Made by a program: the position numbers and the translations under genes
Assembly (NCBI GenBank): GCA_903825285.1
Contig: CAIJZY010000003.1
Span: 62,001-126,000 of the forward strand
Source of the DNA: an uncultured Opitutia bacterium
GTDB taxonomy: Bacteria; Verrucomicrobiota; Verrucomicrobiia; Opitutales; Opitutaceae
DNA: 64,000 nucleotides
Direction: 5' to 3'
Notes under the pieces: model-generated
Seen by the model: the letters and a program-made list of their open reading frames with translations, nothing else
What the model was told of the DNA's origin: nothing
Databases searched by the model: none
Shown here: in pieces, positions 23,658-53,508 of the stretch
How positions within the stretch are numbered: position 1 is the first letter of the stretch
How the letters are laid out: each line of letters starts with the position of its first letter

Positions 23658-23767
23658 GGGACAGCCGATCCGGCTGATCAGTGCGGTAACCCACCCGGGG
23701 AAAGTCACGAGCCAAAAATCCGCCGGGCGGCGCGTCCTTGGGCGAGTTCAGACTGGTTTCGGGCTCT

Positions 23768-23832
23768 CCACGAAGGGCACGAAGCGCACCCAGCCCGGGG
23801 CATGACCTTGGCGCCCTTCGTGTGCTTCGTGG
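23768..23832. repeat. Inverted arrays of a 9-nt unit (CACGAAGGG type)
   Basis: CCACGAAGGGCACGAAG at 23768-23784 faces CCCTTCGTGTGCTTCGTGG at 23814-23832. Each arm is about two 9-nt units. It lies in the 332-base spacer 23658-23989 between divergent genes, where I see no other gene apart from the array at 23862-23888. Confidence 0.65.
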
Positions 23833-23861
23833 CGGATCATCCGATCCCAATCGGGTTTGAC

Positions 23862-23888
23862 CGCCAAGGTCGCCAAGATCGCGAAGCC
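23862..23888. repeat. Array of a 9-nt unit (CGCCAAGGT type)
   Basis: Three 9-mers in exact register: CGCCAAGGT, CGCCAAGAT, CGCGAAGCC. It is about 30 bases from the preceding dyad and of similar style. Confidence 0.5.
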
Positions 23889-23989
23889 TGAGCGCAACGT
23901 CGGCCCGCGCCCAGCCGAGTCGGATCATTTTCCACCCCAGACGGGGGTTGCCGGACTGCGGTCGGCCGTGCAAGCTGTGGTCAACCGTC

Positions 23990-26545: not shown

Positions 26546-27187
26546 GTGCCTGACACGAAGCTGATCTGCCTGGACTGCGACAGCACGCTGAGCGCGCTGG
26601 AGGGCGTGGACGAGCTGGCACGACTGCGCGGGCCGGAGATCCTGGCGCGAGTGGAGCAGATGACGAACGACGCGATGGACGGCCGCGTCGCGGTCGAGGC
26701 GGTCTTCGGCCGCCGCCTGGAGATCATCCAGCCGCGCCGGGCGGACGTCGCGGCCGTGGGCCGGCGCTATGTCGAGACCATCGAGCCGACGGCGCGGGCC
26801 ACTCTGGCGGAGCTCCGGGCCCGGGGCTGGACGGCGGTGATCGTGAGCGGCGGCTTCACGCCGGCGATCCGGCCGCTGGCGGACCTGCTCGGCGTGACGC
26901 GCGTCGAGGCCGTGGAGCTTTTCTTCGCCGAGGACGGCAGCTACCGGGGCTATGACGCGGCCTTTCCCACCACGCGCTCGGGCGGCAAGTCCGAGGTCAT
27001 CCGGCGGCTGCGCGCCGAGCTGCAGCCGGTGCGGACCGTGATGGTGGGTGACGGCGTGAGCGACCTGGAGGCGAGCCCGGCGGTGGACCGCTTCATCGGC
27101 TTCGGCCGCTATGTCGCGCGGCCGCGGGTCCAGACGGAGGCGGCCGGCTTCATCCGTTCGCTCGACGAGCTGCTCCAACTCCTATGA
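26546..27187 (+). CDS. HAD-family phosphatase, SerB-like
   Basis: This 213-residue protein has the HAD motif I as LICLDCDSTL near the N-terminus, then GVDELARL, motif II in TAVIVSGGF, the Lys of motif III in GGKSEVIRRL, and motif IV in VMVGDGVSDLEA. The layout matches phosphoserine phosphatase (last step of serine synthesis), although other small-molecule phosphatases of this branch look alike. The start is a GTG, either at 26546 or five codons earlier at 26531. Its TGA overlaps the ATG of the transporter gene (ATGA), so the two are coupled. Confidence 0.82.
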   Translation: MPDTKLICLDCDSTLSALEGVDELARLRGPEILARVEQMTNDAMDGRVAVEAVFGRRLEIIQPRRADVAAVGRRYVETIEPTARATLAELRARGWTAVIVSGGFTPAIRPLADLLGVTRVEAVELFFAEDGSYRGYDAAFPTTRSGGKSEVIRRLRAELQPVRTVMVGDGVSDLEASPAVDRFIGFGRYVARPRVQTEAAGFIRSLDELLQLL

Positions 27188-28524
27188 GCCCGATTCTCCC
27201 CCTTGCCTCGGCGGCCGGCGCGTTTGAACTGCCACCGGTGCTGCTCGTGCCCTTTGGCCTGCTGCTCCTGCTGATCGCGGTGATGCCGCTGACGCCAGTC
27301 CGGGCGCACCACTGGTGGGAGCGGAATTATCCCTACGTCTCGATCGGGTTGGCGCTGCTGGTGGCGAGCTACTATCTCCTCCGCGTGCCGTCCGGCGGCG
27401 TCACGCTCACGCATTCACTGCACGAGTATGTCTCCTTCATCGCGCTGATCGGCTCGCTGTATGTCGTGTCGGGCGGCATCCACCTCCGCGTGAAGGGCGA
27501 GGCCACGCCCTGGGAGAACGTGCTCTTCCTCGCGGTGGGTGCGGTGCTGGCAAACGTCATCGGCACCACCGGCGCCTCGATGGTGCTGATCCGGCCGTGG
27601 ATCCGGATGAACAAGATCCGCGTCAGCGCGTACCATGTCGTCTTCTTCATCTTCGTGGTCTCGAACCTCGGCGGCGCGCTCACGCCGATTGGCGATCCGC
27701 CGCTGTTCCTCGGCTACCTCCGGGGCGTGCCGTTCTTCTGGCTGGTCGCGCACCTGTGGGACGAGTGGCTGGTCACGCTGGCCCTGGTGCTGGCCGTGTT
27801 CTGGGTGGTGGACCACTGGGGTTTCCGCCGGATGCCGCCGGACATCCAGGGCGAGCTGGAGGGGCGGAAAGAATCCTTCCGGATCGAGGGCCTGCCGAAT
27901 CTCGCGCTCCTGGCGGTGATCGTGGCCGGCGTGTTTCTCCCCGAGACATGCCTGATCCGGGAAATCGTGATGCTTGCGGCCGCCGGCGCCTCGCTGTGGA
28001 TCACACCACGGGAGATCCATGAGCAGAACCACTTCAATTTCGGGCCGGTGAAGGAAGTGGCCTTCCTGTTCATCGGCATCTTCACGACGATGATGCCGGC
28101 GCTGAACTACCTCGAGGGCCATGGCAGCCAGCTCGGCTTCACGCGGCCGGCGCAGTATTACTACGCGACCGGCGGGCTGTCGGCGGTCCTGGACAATGCC
28201 CCGACCTATGTGAATTTCCTGAAGCTGGCCGAGACGACCTTCGTCACGGAAACCGGCGAGGAGCAGGCGGCCGGCGGCGGCGACTATGACCGTCGCGCGG
28301 TGGCGATCCTGCTGAAAACCCACCCGGACATCGTGGCGGCCATCAGCCTGGGCGCGGTCTTCTTCGGCGCGCTGACCTACATCGGCAACGGTCCGAACTT
28401 CATGGTGCGCTCGATCGCGCAGAGCTCGGGCGTGCACTGCCCGAGCTTCTTCGGGTATATCTTCCGCTACAGCCTGCCGGTGCTGCTGCCGATCCTCGGG
28501 CTCAGCGGCTGGCTGTTTCTGTAG
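27184..28524 (+). CDS. Sodium:proton antiporter / CitMHS-like permease (NhaD type)
   Basis: This 446-residue inner-membrane protein has about 11-12 hydrophobic segments. Conserved-looking loops are ANVIGTTGASMVLIRP, FIFVVSNLGGALTPIGDPPLF and SAVLDNAPTYVNFLKLA, all typical of the ion transporter superfamily branch that includes NhaD and CitMHS_2 proteins. Ion specificity (Na+/H+ exchange or organic anion) is not provable from the sequence. It overlaps the SerB-like gene by four bases. The TAG stop is immediately followed by a hairpin and a repeat element. Confidence 0.85.
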   Translation: MSPILPLASAAGAFELPPVLLVPFGLLLLLIAVMPLTPVRAHHWWERNYPYVSIGLALLVASYYLLRVPSGGVTLTHSLHEYVSFIALIGSLYVVSGGIHLRVKGEATPWENVLFLAVGAVLANVIGTTGASMVLIRPWIRMNKIRVSAYHVVFFIFVVSNLGGALTPIGDPPLFLGYLRGVPFFWLVAHLWDEWLVTLALVLAVFWVVDHWGFRRMPPDIQGELEGRKESFRIEGLPNLALLAVIVAGVFLPETCLIREIVMLAAAGASLWITPREIHEQNHFNFGPVKEVAFLFIGIFTTMMPALNYLEGHGSQLGFTRPAQYYYATGGLSAVLDNAPTYVNFLKLAETTFVTETGEEQAAGGGDYDRRAVAILLKTHPDIVAAISLGAVFFGALTYIGNGPNFMVRSIAQSSGVHCPSFFGYIFRYSLPVLLPILGLSGWLFL

Positions 28525-28541
28525 GGCGCCGGAAGGCGCCC
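28524..28541. terminator. GC hairpin after the NhaD-type gene
   Basis: GGGCGCC, loop GGAA, GGCGCCC form a strong stem at the stop codon, without a T run. The TTGAAAG repeat element starts right after it, as at the end of the GH2 gene. Confidence 0.5.
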
Positions 28542-28630
28542 GGTTGAAAGTTGAAAGCTGAGAGTTGATAGACGGAGTTGAAGCTGGCCGCGGGGCGCGG
28601 CTTTCAACTCGGCTCTTTCAACCCTCAACT
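28542..28630. repeat. Inverted arrays of the 7-nt unit TTGAAAG (copy 1)
   Basis: Left arm 28542-28576: GGTTGAA, AGTTGAA, AGCTGAG, AGTTGAT, AGACGGA. Right arm 28601-28628: CTTTCAA, CTCGGCT, CTTTCAA, CCCTCAA. The GC-rich core contains CTGGCCGCGGGGCG. The spacer of two convergent genes is almost completely occupied by it. The core and the AGACGGA unit are shared with the copy at 38591. Confidence 0.8.
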
Positions 28631-28649
28631 GCGCCGCTCGGCGCGGCGC

Positions 28650-29924
28650 TTACGGGAAGAGCCCGCGGGCGGCCTTTGCCTCGGCGACGCGGGCGATGCC
28701 CAGGGTCAGCGCGGCGAGCCGGCGGTTGAACTTGAACTTCCGCTTCTGCGCGTCGACCGAGTCCTTCGCCTTGTCGAGCATGGCGAAGAGCTTCGTGAGC
28801 ACCTCGTCGCGCGTCCAATAGAAGCTCGAGAGGTTCTGCAGCCACTCGAAGTAGGAGACGATCACGCCGCCCGAATTGCACAGCACGTCGGGGATCAGCT
28901 CGATCTCCTCGCGCTGCTCCAGGATGCGGTCGGCGGCATTGGTCGTGGGGCCGTTGGCGCCCTCGGCCAGGACGCGGCACTTGAGCTTCGGGGCGTTCTT
29001 CTCGGTGATGACGCGCTCGAGCGCGGCCGGGATGAGGGCGGTGCATTTGAGCTCCAGCATGTCCTCGTTCGAGATGGGCTCGGCGCCGTCAAAGTCCTTC
29101 AGCACCTTGGCGTACTGGAGATAGGCGAGGGCCTTCTTGATGTTGATGCCCTTCGGATTGTAGAGGCCGCCGGTGTAGTCGGAGATCGCGATGATCTTCG
29201 CGCCGTAGCTCTCGAGCGCGATCGCGGTCTCGCTGCCGACGTTGCCGAAGCCCTGGATGACCGCGGTCGCCTTGTTGACCGGGATCTTCATGTCCTCGAG
29301 GTATTTCTTGGTGAGGTAGGCGACGCCCGCGCCCGTGGCCTCGCGGCGGCCCTGCGAGCCACCGAGGGAGATGGGCTTGCCCGTGACGACCGCCGGGGAG
29401 AGGTGGCCGACATGGGTCGAGTAAGTGTCCATCATCCAGCCCATGATCTTCTCGTTCGTGCCGACGTCCGGTGCCGGCACGTCGGTCTGCGGCCCGAGGA
29501 AGTTCACCATCTCCTGCATGTAGCGGCGGGAGAGGTGCTCCAGCTCGGACTCGGAAAGCTGCTTGGGGTCCACGATCACGCCGCCCTTGGCGCCGCCGTA
29601 GGGCAGGCCGGCCAGCGAGCATTTCCAGCTCATCCACATCGCGAGCGCGGCGACCTCGCCGATGGTGACGTCCTGGTGGAAGCGAATGCCGCCCTTGGAC
29701 GGACCGGTGGAGACGTTGTGCTGGACGCGGTAACCCTCGAAAACCGTTACACTTCCATCGATGCGACGCACCGGCAGCGTGACGGCCATGCAGCGCCGGG
29801 GGTACTTGGTTCGGTCGCGGATCGCCTCCGGGAGGTTGATGGCATCGGCAGCTTGATCAAACTGCCGGCAGGCCATTTTAAAGACTTCTGAATCGTAGAG
29901 GCTCGAAACAATTGCTTTGGACAT
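28650..29924 (-). CDS. gdhA: Glutamate dehydrogenase (Glu/Leu/Phe/Val family)
   Basis: This 424-residue enzyme interconverts glutamate and 2-oxoglutarate plus ammonia. Visible are PSKGGIRFHQ, the catalytic lysine region LAGLPYGGAKGGV, PAPDVGTNEKIMGWM, and the Rossmann loop IQGFGNVGSETA followed by ISDYTGG. The length and the absence of extra domains fit the hexameric small GDH class. Coenzyme choice is not certain. It converges on the NhaD-type gene and is divergent from the coiled-coil membrane protein gene, 145 bases away. Confidence 0.93.
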   Translation of the reverse strand: MSKAIVSSLYDSEVFKMACRQFDQAADAINLPEAIRDRTKYPRRCMAVTLPVRRIDGSVTVFEGYRVQHNVSTGPSKGGIRFHQDVTIGEVAALAMWMSWKCSLAGLPYGGAKGGVIVDPKQLSESELEHLSRRYMQEMVNFLGPQTDVPAPDVGTNEKIMGWMMDTYSTHVGHLSPAVVTGKPISLGGSQGRREATGAGVAYLTKKYLEDMKIPVNKATAVIQGFGNVGSETAIALESYGAKIIAISDYTGGLYNPKGINIKKALAYLQYAKVLKDFDGAEPISNEDMLELKCTALIPAALERVITEKNAPKLKCRVLAEGANGPTTNAADRILEQREEIELIPDVLCNSGGVIVSYFEWLQNLSSFYWTRDEVLTKLFAMLDKAKDSVDAQKRKFKFNRRLAALTLGIARVAEAKAARGLFP

Positions 29925-38075: not shown

Positions 38076-38585
38076 TTACCAGACATCGAGCACGGCGTGG
38101 GAGACCTTGTCGGCCAGCGCCTCGGCGAGCAAAGGCAGCGCCTGGTACTCGGACTGGAGCTGGCCGCCATCCGTGAAGGCATCGCGGCTCACGCTGACCG
38201 CGCGGCCGGCGAACAGGTCGCGGCTGCCGCGGTTGTCGCGCAGCGTGCATTTTGCGCCGAGCGTGAGCGCGAACTTGCGGGCGAGGCCGGTGTCATCCTC
38301 GCGCGCCGAGCGGACGTCGCGGTGGTAATCCTCCAGGACCACGGTGAGCGTGGCGTCGGCTTCCGCGGGCGAGTTGGCCAGGCTGACGCGGCCGTCGTGG
38401 AGCAGGGCCTCGCGGAGCTGGGTGCTGACGATGGCCTGGGCCTGCGGCAGCATGGTCTTGTTCACGACCGGGGCGACATACAGCGTGGAAAAGCGAAGCT
38501 GGCCGGTGGTGCCGAGCTGGTAATGGCCGCAGCCGCAGAGCACGAGCACGGCGAGCAGGCCGAGGAAGGCGGGGCGGAAAGGCAT
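38076..38585 (-). CDS. lptE: Lipoprotein with LptE-like (LPS assembly) features
   Basis: This 169-residue protein starts MPFRPAFLGLLAVLVLCGCG, with a lipobox placing Cys19 as the lipidated residue. The mature part begins HYQLGTTGQLRFSTLYVAPV, similar to LptE, the plug of the LptD outer-membrane translocon for lipopolysaccharide. Sequence conservation of LptE is low, so assignment rests on size, lipobox, opening motif and context beside bamD and fatty-acid genes. Co-transcription with rpe downstream is likely. Confidence 0.72.
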   Translation of the reverse strand: MPFRPAFLGLLAVLVLCGCGHYQLGTTGQLRFSTLYVAPVVNKTMLPQAQAIVSTQLREALLHDGRVSLANSPAEADATLTVVLEDYHRDVRSAREDDTGLARKFALTLGAKCTLRDNRGSRDLFAGRAVSVSRDAFTDGGQLQSEYQALPLLAEALADKVSHAVLDVW

Positions 38586-38590
38586 GGCCT

Positions 38591-38683
38591 AGTTGAAAGT
38601 TGAATGAGGAAAGTTGAAAGACGGAAACGAGCCTGGCCGCCGGGGCGGGGCGAAGCCCTCAACCTTCAACTTTCTGCCTTCAA
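38591..38683. repeat. Inverted arrays of the 7-nt unit TTGAAAG (copy 2)
   Basis: Left arm 38591-38625: AGTTGAA, AGTTGAA, TGAGGAA, AGTTGAA, AGACGGA. Right arm 38656-38683: CCCTCAA, CCTTCAA, CTTTCTG, CCTTCAA. The core carries CTGGCCGCCGGGGCG, close to copy 1. It lies between bamD and lptE, which are in the same orientation. Confidence 0.8.
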
Positions 38684-38709
38684 CCAAACGCCAGCGGCGG
38701 TGGCGCGGC

Positions 38710-52823: not shown

Positions 52824-52848
52824 GCTGCTCGCTCGGGGAGCGAGCAGC
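52824..52848. terminator. Perfect 11-bp hairpin after the GH2 gene
   Basis: GCTGCTCGCTC, loop GGG, GAGCGAGCAGC begins one base after the stop codon (52824-52848). No T run follows; the TTGAAAG repeat element begins directly after it. Confidence 0.55.
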
Positions 52849-52954
52849 GGTTGAAAGTTGAGGGTTGAAAGTTGAAGGACCCTTTCACGGTGGCCCTGTT
52901 GTTCCCGAGTCGCAGGCCGACGGACTCTTTCAACTTTCGACCCTCAACTTTCAA
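52849..52954. repeat. Inverted arrays of the 7-nt unit TTGAAAG (copy 3)
   Basis: Left arm 52849-52876: GGTTGAA, AGTTGAG, GGTTGAA, AGTTGAA. Right arm 52927-52954: CTTTCAA, CTTTCGA, CCCTCAA, CTTTCAA. The core (about 50 bases) differs from copies 1 and 2. It fills the convergent spacer between GH2 and thpR. Confidence 0.82.
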
Positions 52955-53508
52955 CTCCCCAACGCCCCCAGCGGAAACTCGCGCTCGACGGTGTAGAGCG
53001 GTCCGCCGGGCTGCAGCACAGTCGAGTAGTGCGTGAACCGCGTGACGCGGAACTCCGGGCCGGCGAAATCGCGGTGGCGCTTCACGTAATGCGCGGCGGC
53101 CACGGGTGCGGCGTCCGGCCGCAGGCGGGCGAGCGTAACGTGCGGGTGGAACGTGCGCAGGTCGAGGTCGAGTCCGAGCGCCAGCAGGGAGTCGTCGAGG
53201 CGCTGGCGCAGCTGGAAGAGCAGGGGATGTCCGCGGCCCAGGCCGGCCCAGAGCACGGCGGGATGGCCGCGGGGCGGGAACGCGCCCACGCCTTCCAGCG
53301 GCAGGAGAAACGGCGCGACGCGGATGGCGCCGAGGGCCGCGTCCAGCGCCGCGCACCGGTCCGCGTCCAGTTCGCCGAGGAAGCGCAGGGTCACGTGCAG
53401 CTGCTCCGGCGGCGTCCAGGCGAAGCCCGGCAGCTCGGCGGTCAGCCCGGCGAGCACGCGCCGCGCCTCGTCGGGCAGGGGCAGCGCGATGAAATGGCGC
53501 GCGGACAT
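52951..53508 (-). CDS. thpR: RNA 2',3'-cyclic phosphodiesterase
   Basis: This 185-residue member of the 2H phosphoesterase superfamily (formerly 2'-5' RNA ligase) has the two catalytic HxTx motifs: QLHVTLRFLG near residue 38 and FHPHVTLARL near 122. It starts MSARHFIALPLPDEARR, which matches the family. The 3' end overlaps the last four bases of a repeat-element arm. It is convergent with GH2. Confidence 0.93.
   Translation of the reverse strand: MSARHFIALPLPDEARRVLAGLTAELPGFAWTPPEQLHVTLRFLGELDADRCAALDAALGAIRVAPFLLPLEGVGAFPPRGHPAVLWAGLGRGHPLLFQLRQRLDDSLLALGLDLDLRTFHPHVTLARLRPDAAPVAAAHYVKRHRDFAGPEFRVTRFTHYSTVLQPGGPLYTVEREFPLGALGS

Follow-up and report, generated by a model that had tools for sequence, protein, structure and literature searches.

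Three intergenic spacers in a 64,000-nucleotide stretch of an uncultured Opitutia bacterium (assembly GCA_903825285.1, contig CAIJZY010000003.1; hereafter the window) hold tandem heptamers of the GTTGAAA type that face their own reverse complements across a core, and the question they raise is what such elements are and how a genome comes by them. The window is C3:62001-126000 of a 3.74-Mb genome in 62 contigs (G000). A model's reading of the letters alone (the sequence-only reading) had described here a family of intergenic elements built from inverted heptamer arrays. Scoring in a fixed register places the three elements at 28543-28629, 38592-38684 and 52850-52955, each one base off the edges first proposed, and confirms the exact 7-nt register of the units in both arms of all three; the AGACGGA unit and core CTGGCCGC..GGGGCG common to elements 1 and 2 can likewise be read in the sequence, and the three elements as a whole lie far beyond chance. 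GTTGAAA proves to be one of several unrelated units that share one design in this genome; its family sits mostly at gene 3′ ends, and 7 nt is the commonest unit length in the genome. Our best reading, put forward tentatively and at somewhat less than an even chance, is that these elements belong to a broad class of dispersed intergenic inverted short-unit arrays gained via fold-back or template-switch events.

Our sample consisted of the window and contig C14 (396 kb, unselected, about a tenth of the genome), with genes called by a purpose-made caller (86% coding) rather than taken from an annotation. A strict search of this sample returned seven inward-facing elements and no outward-facing one, compared to at most one per sequence for permuted units (mean 0.33 and maximum 1 over 15 permuted rotation classes). 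Counts equal to those of shuffled spacers, the outcome that the sequence-only reading had named as fatal to its family, were not seen: no element turned up in 100 Markov surrogates generated from the 198 gaps measuring 60 nt or more. Across the whole genome, exact GTTGAAAGTTGAAAG occurs 36 times versus 3 for the pattern read backwards, an excess that becomes small when two mismatches are allowed (206 versus 151).

We collected 46 elements, comprising those of the sample plus places with an exact or one-mismatch pattern among the matches listed; the collection criterion was loose, and two or three of the lowest scorers (28-31) may not belong, while the place beside locus L001 (site 4) falls outside the collection because its decayed left arm fails the criterion. 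The elements are 69-135 nt long (median 91.5), with four-unit arms on the left in 35 of 46 and on the right in 33 of 46 (68 of 92 arms overall). Conservation over 348 units is G.96, T.82, T.90, G.95, A.88, A.76 and A.68, and the third unit counted from the inside is loose throughout the family, often reading GTTGAGG. Cores are GC-rich and, by eye, mostly unlike one another apart from those of elements 1 and 2. The design thus has two inverted conserved arms, a variable spacer, an extragenic position and many copies. Its arms, mostly of four units with one of them loose, are terminal inverted repeats common to copies, as in miniature inverted-repeat transposable elements (MITEs), and its tandem intergenic 7-nt units recall the heptanucleotide short tandemly repeated repetitive sequences (STRR) and long simple sequence repeats (LSSR). 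Cyanobacterial STRR are intergenic heptanucleotide direct repeats; direct orientation with freely varying copy number was not found in these elements, which are paired inward arrays of mostly four units. These data support a dispersed class of intergenic elements in which heptamer arrays are inverted, a counterpart to the heptanucleotide repeats already known, and bear out the family first proposed, with 46 members collected and only inward-facing ones in the strict search.

Under the loose criterion, permuted units gave up to 10 matches in C14, which turned out to be a second real family, GTAGCGA/GTAGTGA, together with the GTTGAAA elements themselves. Because this control had matched a second family, we scanned the 206 gaps of at least 50 nt for inverted periodic arrays of any unit, using order-2 Markov surrogates (8 runs). 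Period-7 arrays were found in 25 of the 206 gaps (surrogate mean 0.125) and period-9 arrays in 6 further gaps (surrogate mean 0), making 31 distinct gaps. Period 5 gave 7 versus 5.4 in surrogates, period 6 gave 3 versus 0.25, period 8 gave 1, and periods 10-12 gave none in these gaps. All period-7 (25/25) and period-9 matches in the window and C14 fall in gaps; period-6 matches are mostly coding (15/17 and 18/20 in the whole-sequence scan). Since 31 of 206 gaps in the sampled tenth carry an array, such arrays are a main component of intergenic DNA here. A stricter scan, which misses window element 1, splits them into GTTGAAA (5), GTAGCGA (10), CGAACGC (5), GTCAGAG (2), others (3) and 9-mers of the CACGAAGGG type (6). 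The ten GTAGCGA/GTAGTGA arrays (C14:45798, 46397, 51453, 68928, 91963, 98971, 131436, 131916, 136767 and 137863) outnumber GTTGAAA in C14, all lie in codirectional gaps and lack junction hairpins; the 9-mer arrays lie at window 23658-23989 (array from 23768) and at C14:38707, 47912, 66437, 95569 and 175825.

The same design extends to other genomes. In 488 kb of relatives, gaps hold 5 arrays of period 7, 7 of period 8, 3 of period 9 and 1 of period 10, and 8-mer and 10-mer versions of the design can be seen there. In 467 kb from other phyla, near but outside the seed elements, we counted 29 period-7 arrays, a biased rate because these loci had been picked for GTTGAAA arrays, and 2, 3, 2 and 4 arrays of periods 6, 8, 9 and 10; in a single surrogate run, one period-6 array appeared and none of the other periods. 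The period-7 units of these phyla include GGTATTA, GTTAGTA, GGGTTAT, CAATAAC, TTAACAA and more.

We then considered where the GTTGAAA elements lie relative to genes. Both neighbors were called for 43 of the 46 elements (two that appear inside genes are probably caller errors, and one is at a contig end), with 15 in convergent, 27 in codirectional and 1 in divergent gaps, versus 28, 127 and 43 among the 198 background gaps of at least 60 nt. Divergent gaps are depleted (1/43 versus 43/198, p=0.0017; p=0.043 versus all gene pairs) and convergent gaps enriched (p=0.0034), and 16 of the 27 codirectional copies extend to within 12 nt of the next called start. At 17 of 57 gene 3′ ends the neighbor's stop codon lies inside the array, at offsets 5 (8 cases), 12 (5), 19 (3) and 26 (1), which are the TGA of units 1, 2, 3 and 4. 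Since 7 mod 3 is 1, the TGA of GTTGAAA hits all three frames, and the array can serve as a three-frame stop for the neighboring gene on either side; the earlier argument that coding is not the reason because seven is not a multiple of three therefore fails. Selection for stop codons as the reason for the unit was considered and rejected: TGA occupies unit positions 3-5 in 281 of 348 units, and TAA or TAG occupies them in none, so the stop looks like a consequence of the GTTGAAA unit and not its cause, with the counterpoint that the second family, GTAGCGA, contains TAG.

The junctions between genes and arrays carry the evidence for fold-back. On 26 of 59 sides facing a gene 3′ end, the outermost unit lies 0-1 nt from the end of a perfect 6-18-bp stem, compared to 4 of 32 other sides and 1% of random 45-mers; among 323 array-free gene ends, 41 have a stem somewhere within the 45 nt (12.7%, random 10.4%). 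These stems are locus-specific, some take in the stop codon, and junction stems are present on 9 of 52 sides in relatives and 6 of 126 sides in other phyla (versus 1.5%), adjoining GTCAGAG and unclassed heptamer arrays as well. At C6:11012, seven relatives offer a readable match (G003, G004, G005, G008, G009, G010 and G011; the other four gave none), and in each the gene ends no more than two codons past the stretch that reads TGGAGCCGGTTGCGCCGCC here. In G000, TGGAGCCGGTTGCGCCGCC is followed by its 18-bp inverted copy and then by the array GGTGAGAGTTGAAAG; the original stop is lost and the gene now ends at the array's TGA. Set against its orthologs, this hairpin is shown to be a fresh inverted copy of the gene's own end, with the original stop replaced by the array TGA. 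At C31:78215, the far hairpin arm and the array encode the C-terminal residues of a protein that is also conserved in G008 (133 residues here versus 135 there), and at C41:17050 it is a gene start that is mirrored. Two Bacteroides loci (L035 and L036) have the array-adjoining host stretch in three copies: one direct, one inverted at the junction, and a second direct one past the far arm.

We compared orthologous gaps across the genus, for which a tree from two loci (1940 columns) leaves 3 of 9 inner branches open and supports G005+G009 and G000+G008. By eye, the element 1 gap is bare in G007 (12 nt) and G001 (39 nt); G003 has a different heptamer array there, oriented the opposite way, G008 combines a GTCGAAA array with a further inverted repeat, G005 and G009 carry a different inverted repeat, and G011 has 444 unrelated nt. 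At the element 2 gap, elements are present in G000, G008 and G009; the gap is element-free in G001, G004, G005 and G010 (63-67 nt, mutually alignable at 68-84%), and G007 keeps the start of the element-free gap, with an insert. The simplest history of this site is at least two independent gains, each replacing the old gap, with transfer between species also possible. At orthologous gaps, an element takes the place of the old gap and does not split it. By eye, the element-free gap (orthologous to window 38586-38709) contains a conserved stretch with a promoter-like TTGTCA-N17-ATTGCT in those four genomes, and this stretch is missing where an element took over. No relative examined has both neighbors of element 3 close together; the gap in G008 is 917 nt.

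Site 4 could be read in 11 of 12 genomes. Arms of the GTTGAAA type, some decayed or half, occur in G000, G002, G004, G005, G008, G009, G010 and G011; G001 and G006 have none, and their gaps align over the last 55-60 nt (74%, z 6.7); G003 carries a GTGCGGA-type array. Within the sister trio G002, G004 and G006, whose flanks at this site are 94-97% identical, G006 is without the element. Overall, 30 of 54 gap comparisons within the trio align at 83-98%, and the rest are lower, several through insertions of other repeats. A lack of conservation in related strains, part of the second outcome that the sequence-only reading had named as refuting, was not seen for the family, whose exact 15-mer is found in 10 of 12 genomes of the genus, while individual gaps differ between species.

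Outside the genus, the exact 15-mer occurs in 1 of 13 genomes of other genera in the family and 1 of 13 genomes of other families, where the control is equal. The strict inverted pattern (gap 10-40) was found in none of the 37 relatives. In GTDB genomes the strict pattern was found in 63 stretches, from many Bacteroides and Parabacteroides, Prevotellaceae, Chloroflexi, Planctomycetales, Acidobacteriota, Desulfobacterales, Desulfurivibrionaceae, two metagenome-assembled genomes (MAGs) of Opitutaceae and single others. The Bacteroides and Parabacteroides carriers include non-MAG records, which disfavors a binning artefact, and the exact inverted pattern is in only 1 stretch of IMG/VR, indicating that arrays are not a typical viral part. 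The inverted-array design recurs in distant phyla.

On the fold-back explanation, each gain would arise during DNA repair or replication, when a broken or stalled end near the stop of a gene folds back and, by a template switch, copies 6-18 nt of itself. The copied end would then be joined to, or extended by, array arms; on either side, the purine-richer strand would usually read inward in the 5′ to 3′ direction, although exceptions were seen. Because arms are common to loci and phyla, they would be copied from elsewhere or made by a trans-acting enzyme. Selection would retain gains that do little harm, beside stops and seldom in divergent promoter gaps. A wider form of this explanation, which we regard as unlikely, is that many phyla share a process writing repeats of near-fixed length (7, sometimes 8-10 nt) but free sequence on either side of an intergenic break or stalled fork; each end would, in some families, first copy itself backwards, the result would be an inward-facing inverted array, and the unit would be set by an interchangeable template.

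Several observations count against the fold-back explanation. Copying is proven against orthologs at C6:11012 alone, and 33 of the 59 gene-end sides lack a junction stem at 0-1 nt (27 have none and 6 have one farther off). Junction stems are absent from GTAGCGA (0/20 sides), CGAACGC (0/10) and 9-mer (0/12) arrays, and 3 of the 6 9-mer arrays are in divergent gaps. A hairpin at a gene end can also be a terminator. The element 2 junction in G009 is weak evidence because its near arm TGATCGCC is shared with element-free G001 and not with the sister G005 (TGAGCGCG). At site 4, G002 and G004 probably share a single inherited element and do not represent two gains, since their copies align at 71% (z 9.7; 25 unrelated elements have a mean of 61 and a maximum of 67%) and share an irregular left arm, although their cores hardly align (z 2.1). 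Seven is not unique, as the relatives' gaps have more period-8 than period-7 arrays. The mostly fixed arm length and the loose third unit resemble terminal inverted repeats more than free-running repeat addition, and no result here points to the source of the arm sequence.

That resemblance is what lends weight to a MITE-like origin, in which 29-nt arms would be the terminal inverted repeats of some transposase whose insertion sites lie immediately 3′ of terminator-like hairpins that end genes; we find this doubtful, yet take it more seriously than the other rivals. Arms of mostly exactly four units with one loose position, inward polarity and 46 collected copies of 69-135 nt would all follow, and the target site would lie at the hairpin foot, 0-1 nt away. 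However, target-site duplications in the 46 elements (k 2-11) do not rise above shuffled pairs, and none was established at the 63 loci of other phyla, where 3 have 9 of 10 nt (4.8% versus 0.8%), one of them of low complexity. Cores are not visibly shared outside elements 1 and 2, old gaps are replaced and not split, one design serves several unrelated units, and the seven C6:11012 orthologs lack a hairpin that could have been the target. A functional RNA, acting as a bidirectional terminator or 3′-end stabilizer with hairpins and arms under selection, would account for the occupation of gene 3′ ends, the enrichment in convergent gaps and the GC hairpins that adjoin arrays, and the long hairpin that the sequence-only reading imagined does have a basis in folding, in that the three window gaps fold well on both strands (z -1.1 to -8.9). 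Its pairing is hardly maintained, though, because the two arms of an element resemble each other barely more than arms drawn from different elements do (0.790 versus 0.773, p=0.025), leaving a kept RNA hairpin weakly supported. After the hairpins come 0-1 nt and then GTTGAAAG-like units, without the T run of an intrinsic terminator, while hairpins with T runs do occur in other gaps; codirectional copies often reach almost to the next start, and the same gaps are element-free in some relatives. Rfam gave no match in the window at gathering scores. We consider a functional RNA rather unlikely. The other mechanism first proposed, a repeated protein-binding site, leaves unexplained both the several unrelated heptamers in one design and the inverted host copies at junctions. 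The dispersed inverted family therefore stands, but both mechanisms offered for it fare less well.

Two ready-made enzymes were also weighed. A telomerase-like polymerase with a repeated template, extending each 3′ end of a break by units of 7 or 9 nt before the two are joined, would suit the unit polarity and a near-constant unit length (7-10 nt) of free sequence, and DRT10 has been reported to make 9-nt tandem repeats off an RNA template (PMC12632851). Such an origin is nonetheless improbable here, as the reverse transcriptase family RVT_1 (PF00078) was found in 0 of 12 genus genomes (the control was positive in 3 of 14 known genomes) and arm length is not free. Repetitive extragenic palindromic (REP) doublets forming hairpins (REPINs), moved by a REP-associated tyrosine transposase (RAYT), share the outline of two inverted conserved arms, variable spacer, extragenic position and tens of copies, and the RAYT domain Y1_Tnp is present in 9 of 12 genus genomes. 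It is absent, however, from the other 3 and from 7 of 17 array-bearing genomes of other groups, no array pair lies in the available flanks (up to 1.5 kb) of 49 Y1_Tnp loci (19 + 30), and neither the arms nor the flank base composition shows a palindromic REP arm tagged with GTAG/CGTC; this origin was already disfavored and we hold it very improbable. The missing RVT_1 and the missing RAYT link remove both enzymes at the sensitivity of the models used. REP-like repeats with GTAG ends were seen by eye in relatives' gaps (G005, L228; G008, L224; G010, L232), as were short, palindromic-looking stretches that repeat around a G000 gene for Y1_Tnp (L195, C14:32023); these are perhaps ordinary REP systems beside the arrays. 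In G009 (L121, C30, about 1400-1490), an inverted repeat ATTCTTCGCTGCGCTCAGAATGACA, which we take to occur in many unrelated genomes, adjoins an array.

Several described systems come close to the elements. REPINs and REPs or bacterial interspersed mosaic elements with RAYT transposases (Bertels and Rainey 2011, PMC3116915; also PMC3733652), found in Planctomycetes-Verrucomicrobia-Chlamydiae bacteria too, are extragenic, number tens to hundreds of copies and form hairpins from inverted arms with a variable spacer; here, in contrast, arms are tandem heptamers and not tagged palindromes, a RAYT link is missing, and there are several units and host copies at junctions. In MacGregor (2015, PMC4679880), which credits Mrazek (2007) for heptamers being the commonest long repeat class in most genomes studied, TAACTGA repeats are likewise intergenic 7-nt units, patchy over distant phyla and missing from some relatives' gaps, but they form direct sets mostly upstream of starts, with one indirect set beside 169 direct ones, rather than inward arrays around a core. 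Geobacter metallireducens has dozens of copies of 4-5 tandem heptamers, as four-heptamer elements and class 3 sites of five heptamers whose alignments loop back to the other strand (PMC2700814); their consensus sequences are GGACCGG and MTYCTGA, the first also lies within genes, and they are termed regulatory. Template-switch mutations (Monttinen and Loytynoja 2022, PMC8794818) can produce a perfect hairpin in one event by copying the nascent or complementary strand, as we infer at C6:11012, although they are described for RNA genes and not for the edge of a dispersed array. DRT10 makes short tandem repeats, of 9 nt in the main example and other lengths in others, but its product is single-stranded complementary DNA, the passages at hand do not mention genomic arrays, and the genus here has no RVT_1.

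A literature search, outside which most subscription journals lay, returned no account of inverted heptamer arrays, their many units or fold-back junctions, and the sole match to the heptamer pair as printed text concerns, by its title, a Haemophilus gene. Among small dispersed intergenic repeats, heptamer direct repeats are known; inverted arrays, many units and fold-back junctions are apparently new. The elements bring together heptanucleotide repeats and small inverted-repeat elements, which have so far been studied apart, and the fold-back junctions offer a concrete handle on the origin of such elements; because arrays replace gaps and supply stop codons, genes are changed as well.

The window elements themselves illustrate this anatomy. 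Element 1 has a plus-strand left arm (28543..28570; units GTTGAAA GTTGAAA GCTGAGA GTTGATA), a GC-rich core (28571..28601; GACGGAG TTGAAGC.., with the sequence common to element 2) and a minus-strand right arm of reverse-complement units (28602..28629). It lies between genes for a CitMHS_2 putative citrate transporter (27238..28524, plus strand; the open reading frame possibly starts at 27184) and a Glu/Leu/Phe/Val dehydrogenase (28650..29789, minus strand). On the transporter side, a plus-strand junction hairpin with a 7-bp perfect stem (28524..28541) begins in the last base of the TAG stop, its foot lying 1 nt short of the array; on the dehydrogenase side, a 7-bp stem (28631..28649) adjoins the TAA stop (28650-28652). 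Element 2 has its left arm on the plus strand (38592..38619), 6 nt upstream of the called start of a minus-strand LptE-like gene (38076-38585), and its right arm on the minus strand (38657..38684), with the core between; neither side has a junction stem of at least 6 bp. At element 3, a plus-strand hairpin with an 11-bp perfect stem (52824..52848) adjoins a TAG stop, its foot 1 nt from the array, and is followed by the left arm (52850..52877, plus strand; GTTGAAA GTTGAGG GTTGAAA GTTGAAG), the core (52878..52927) and a minus-strand right arm (52928..52955) that contains the stop (52951-52953) of a minus-strand LigT-like gene (52951-53508).
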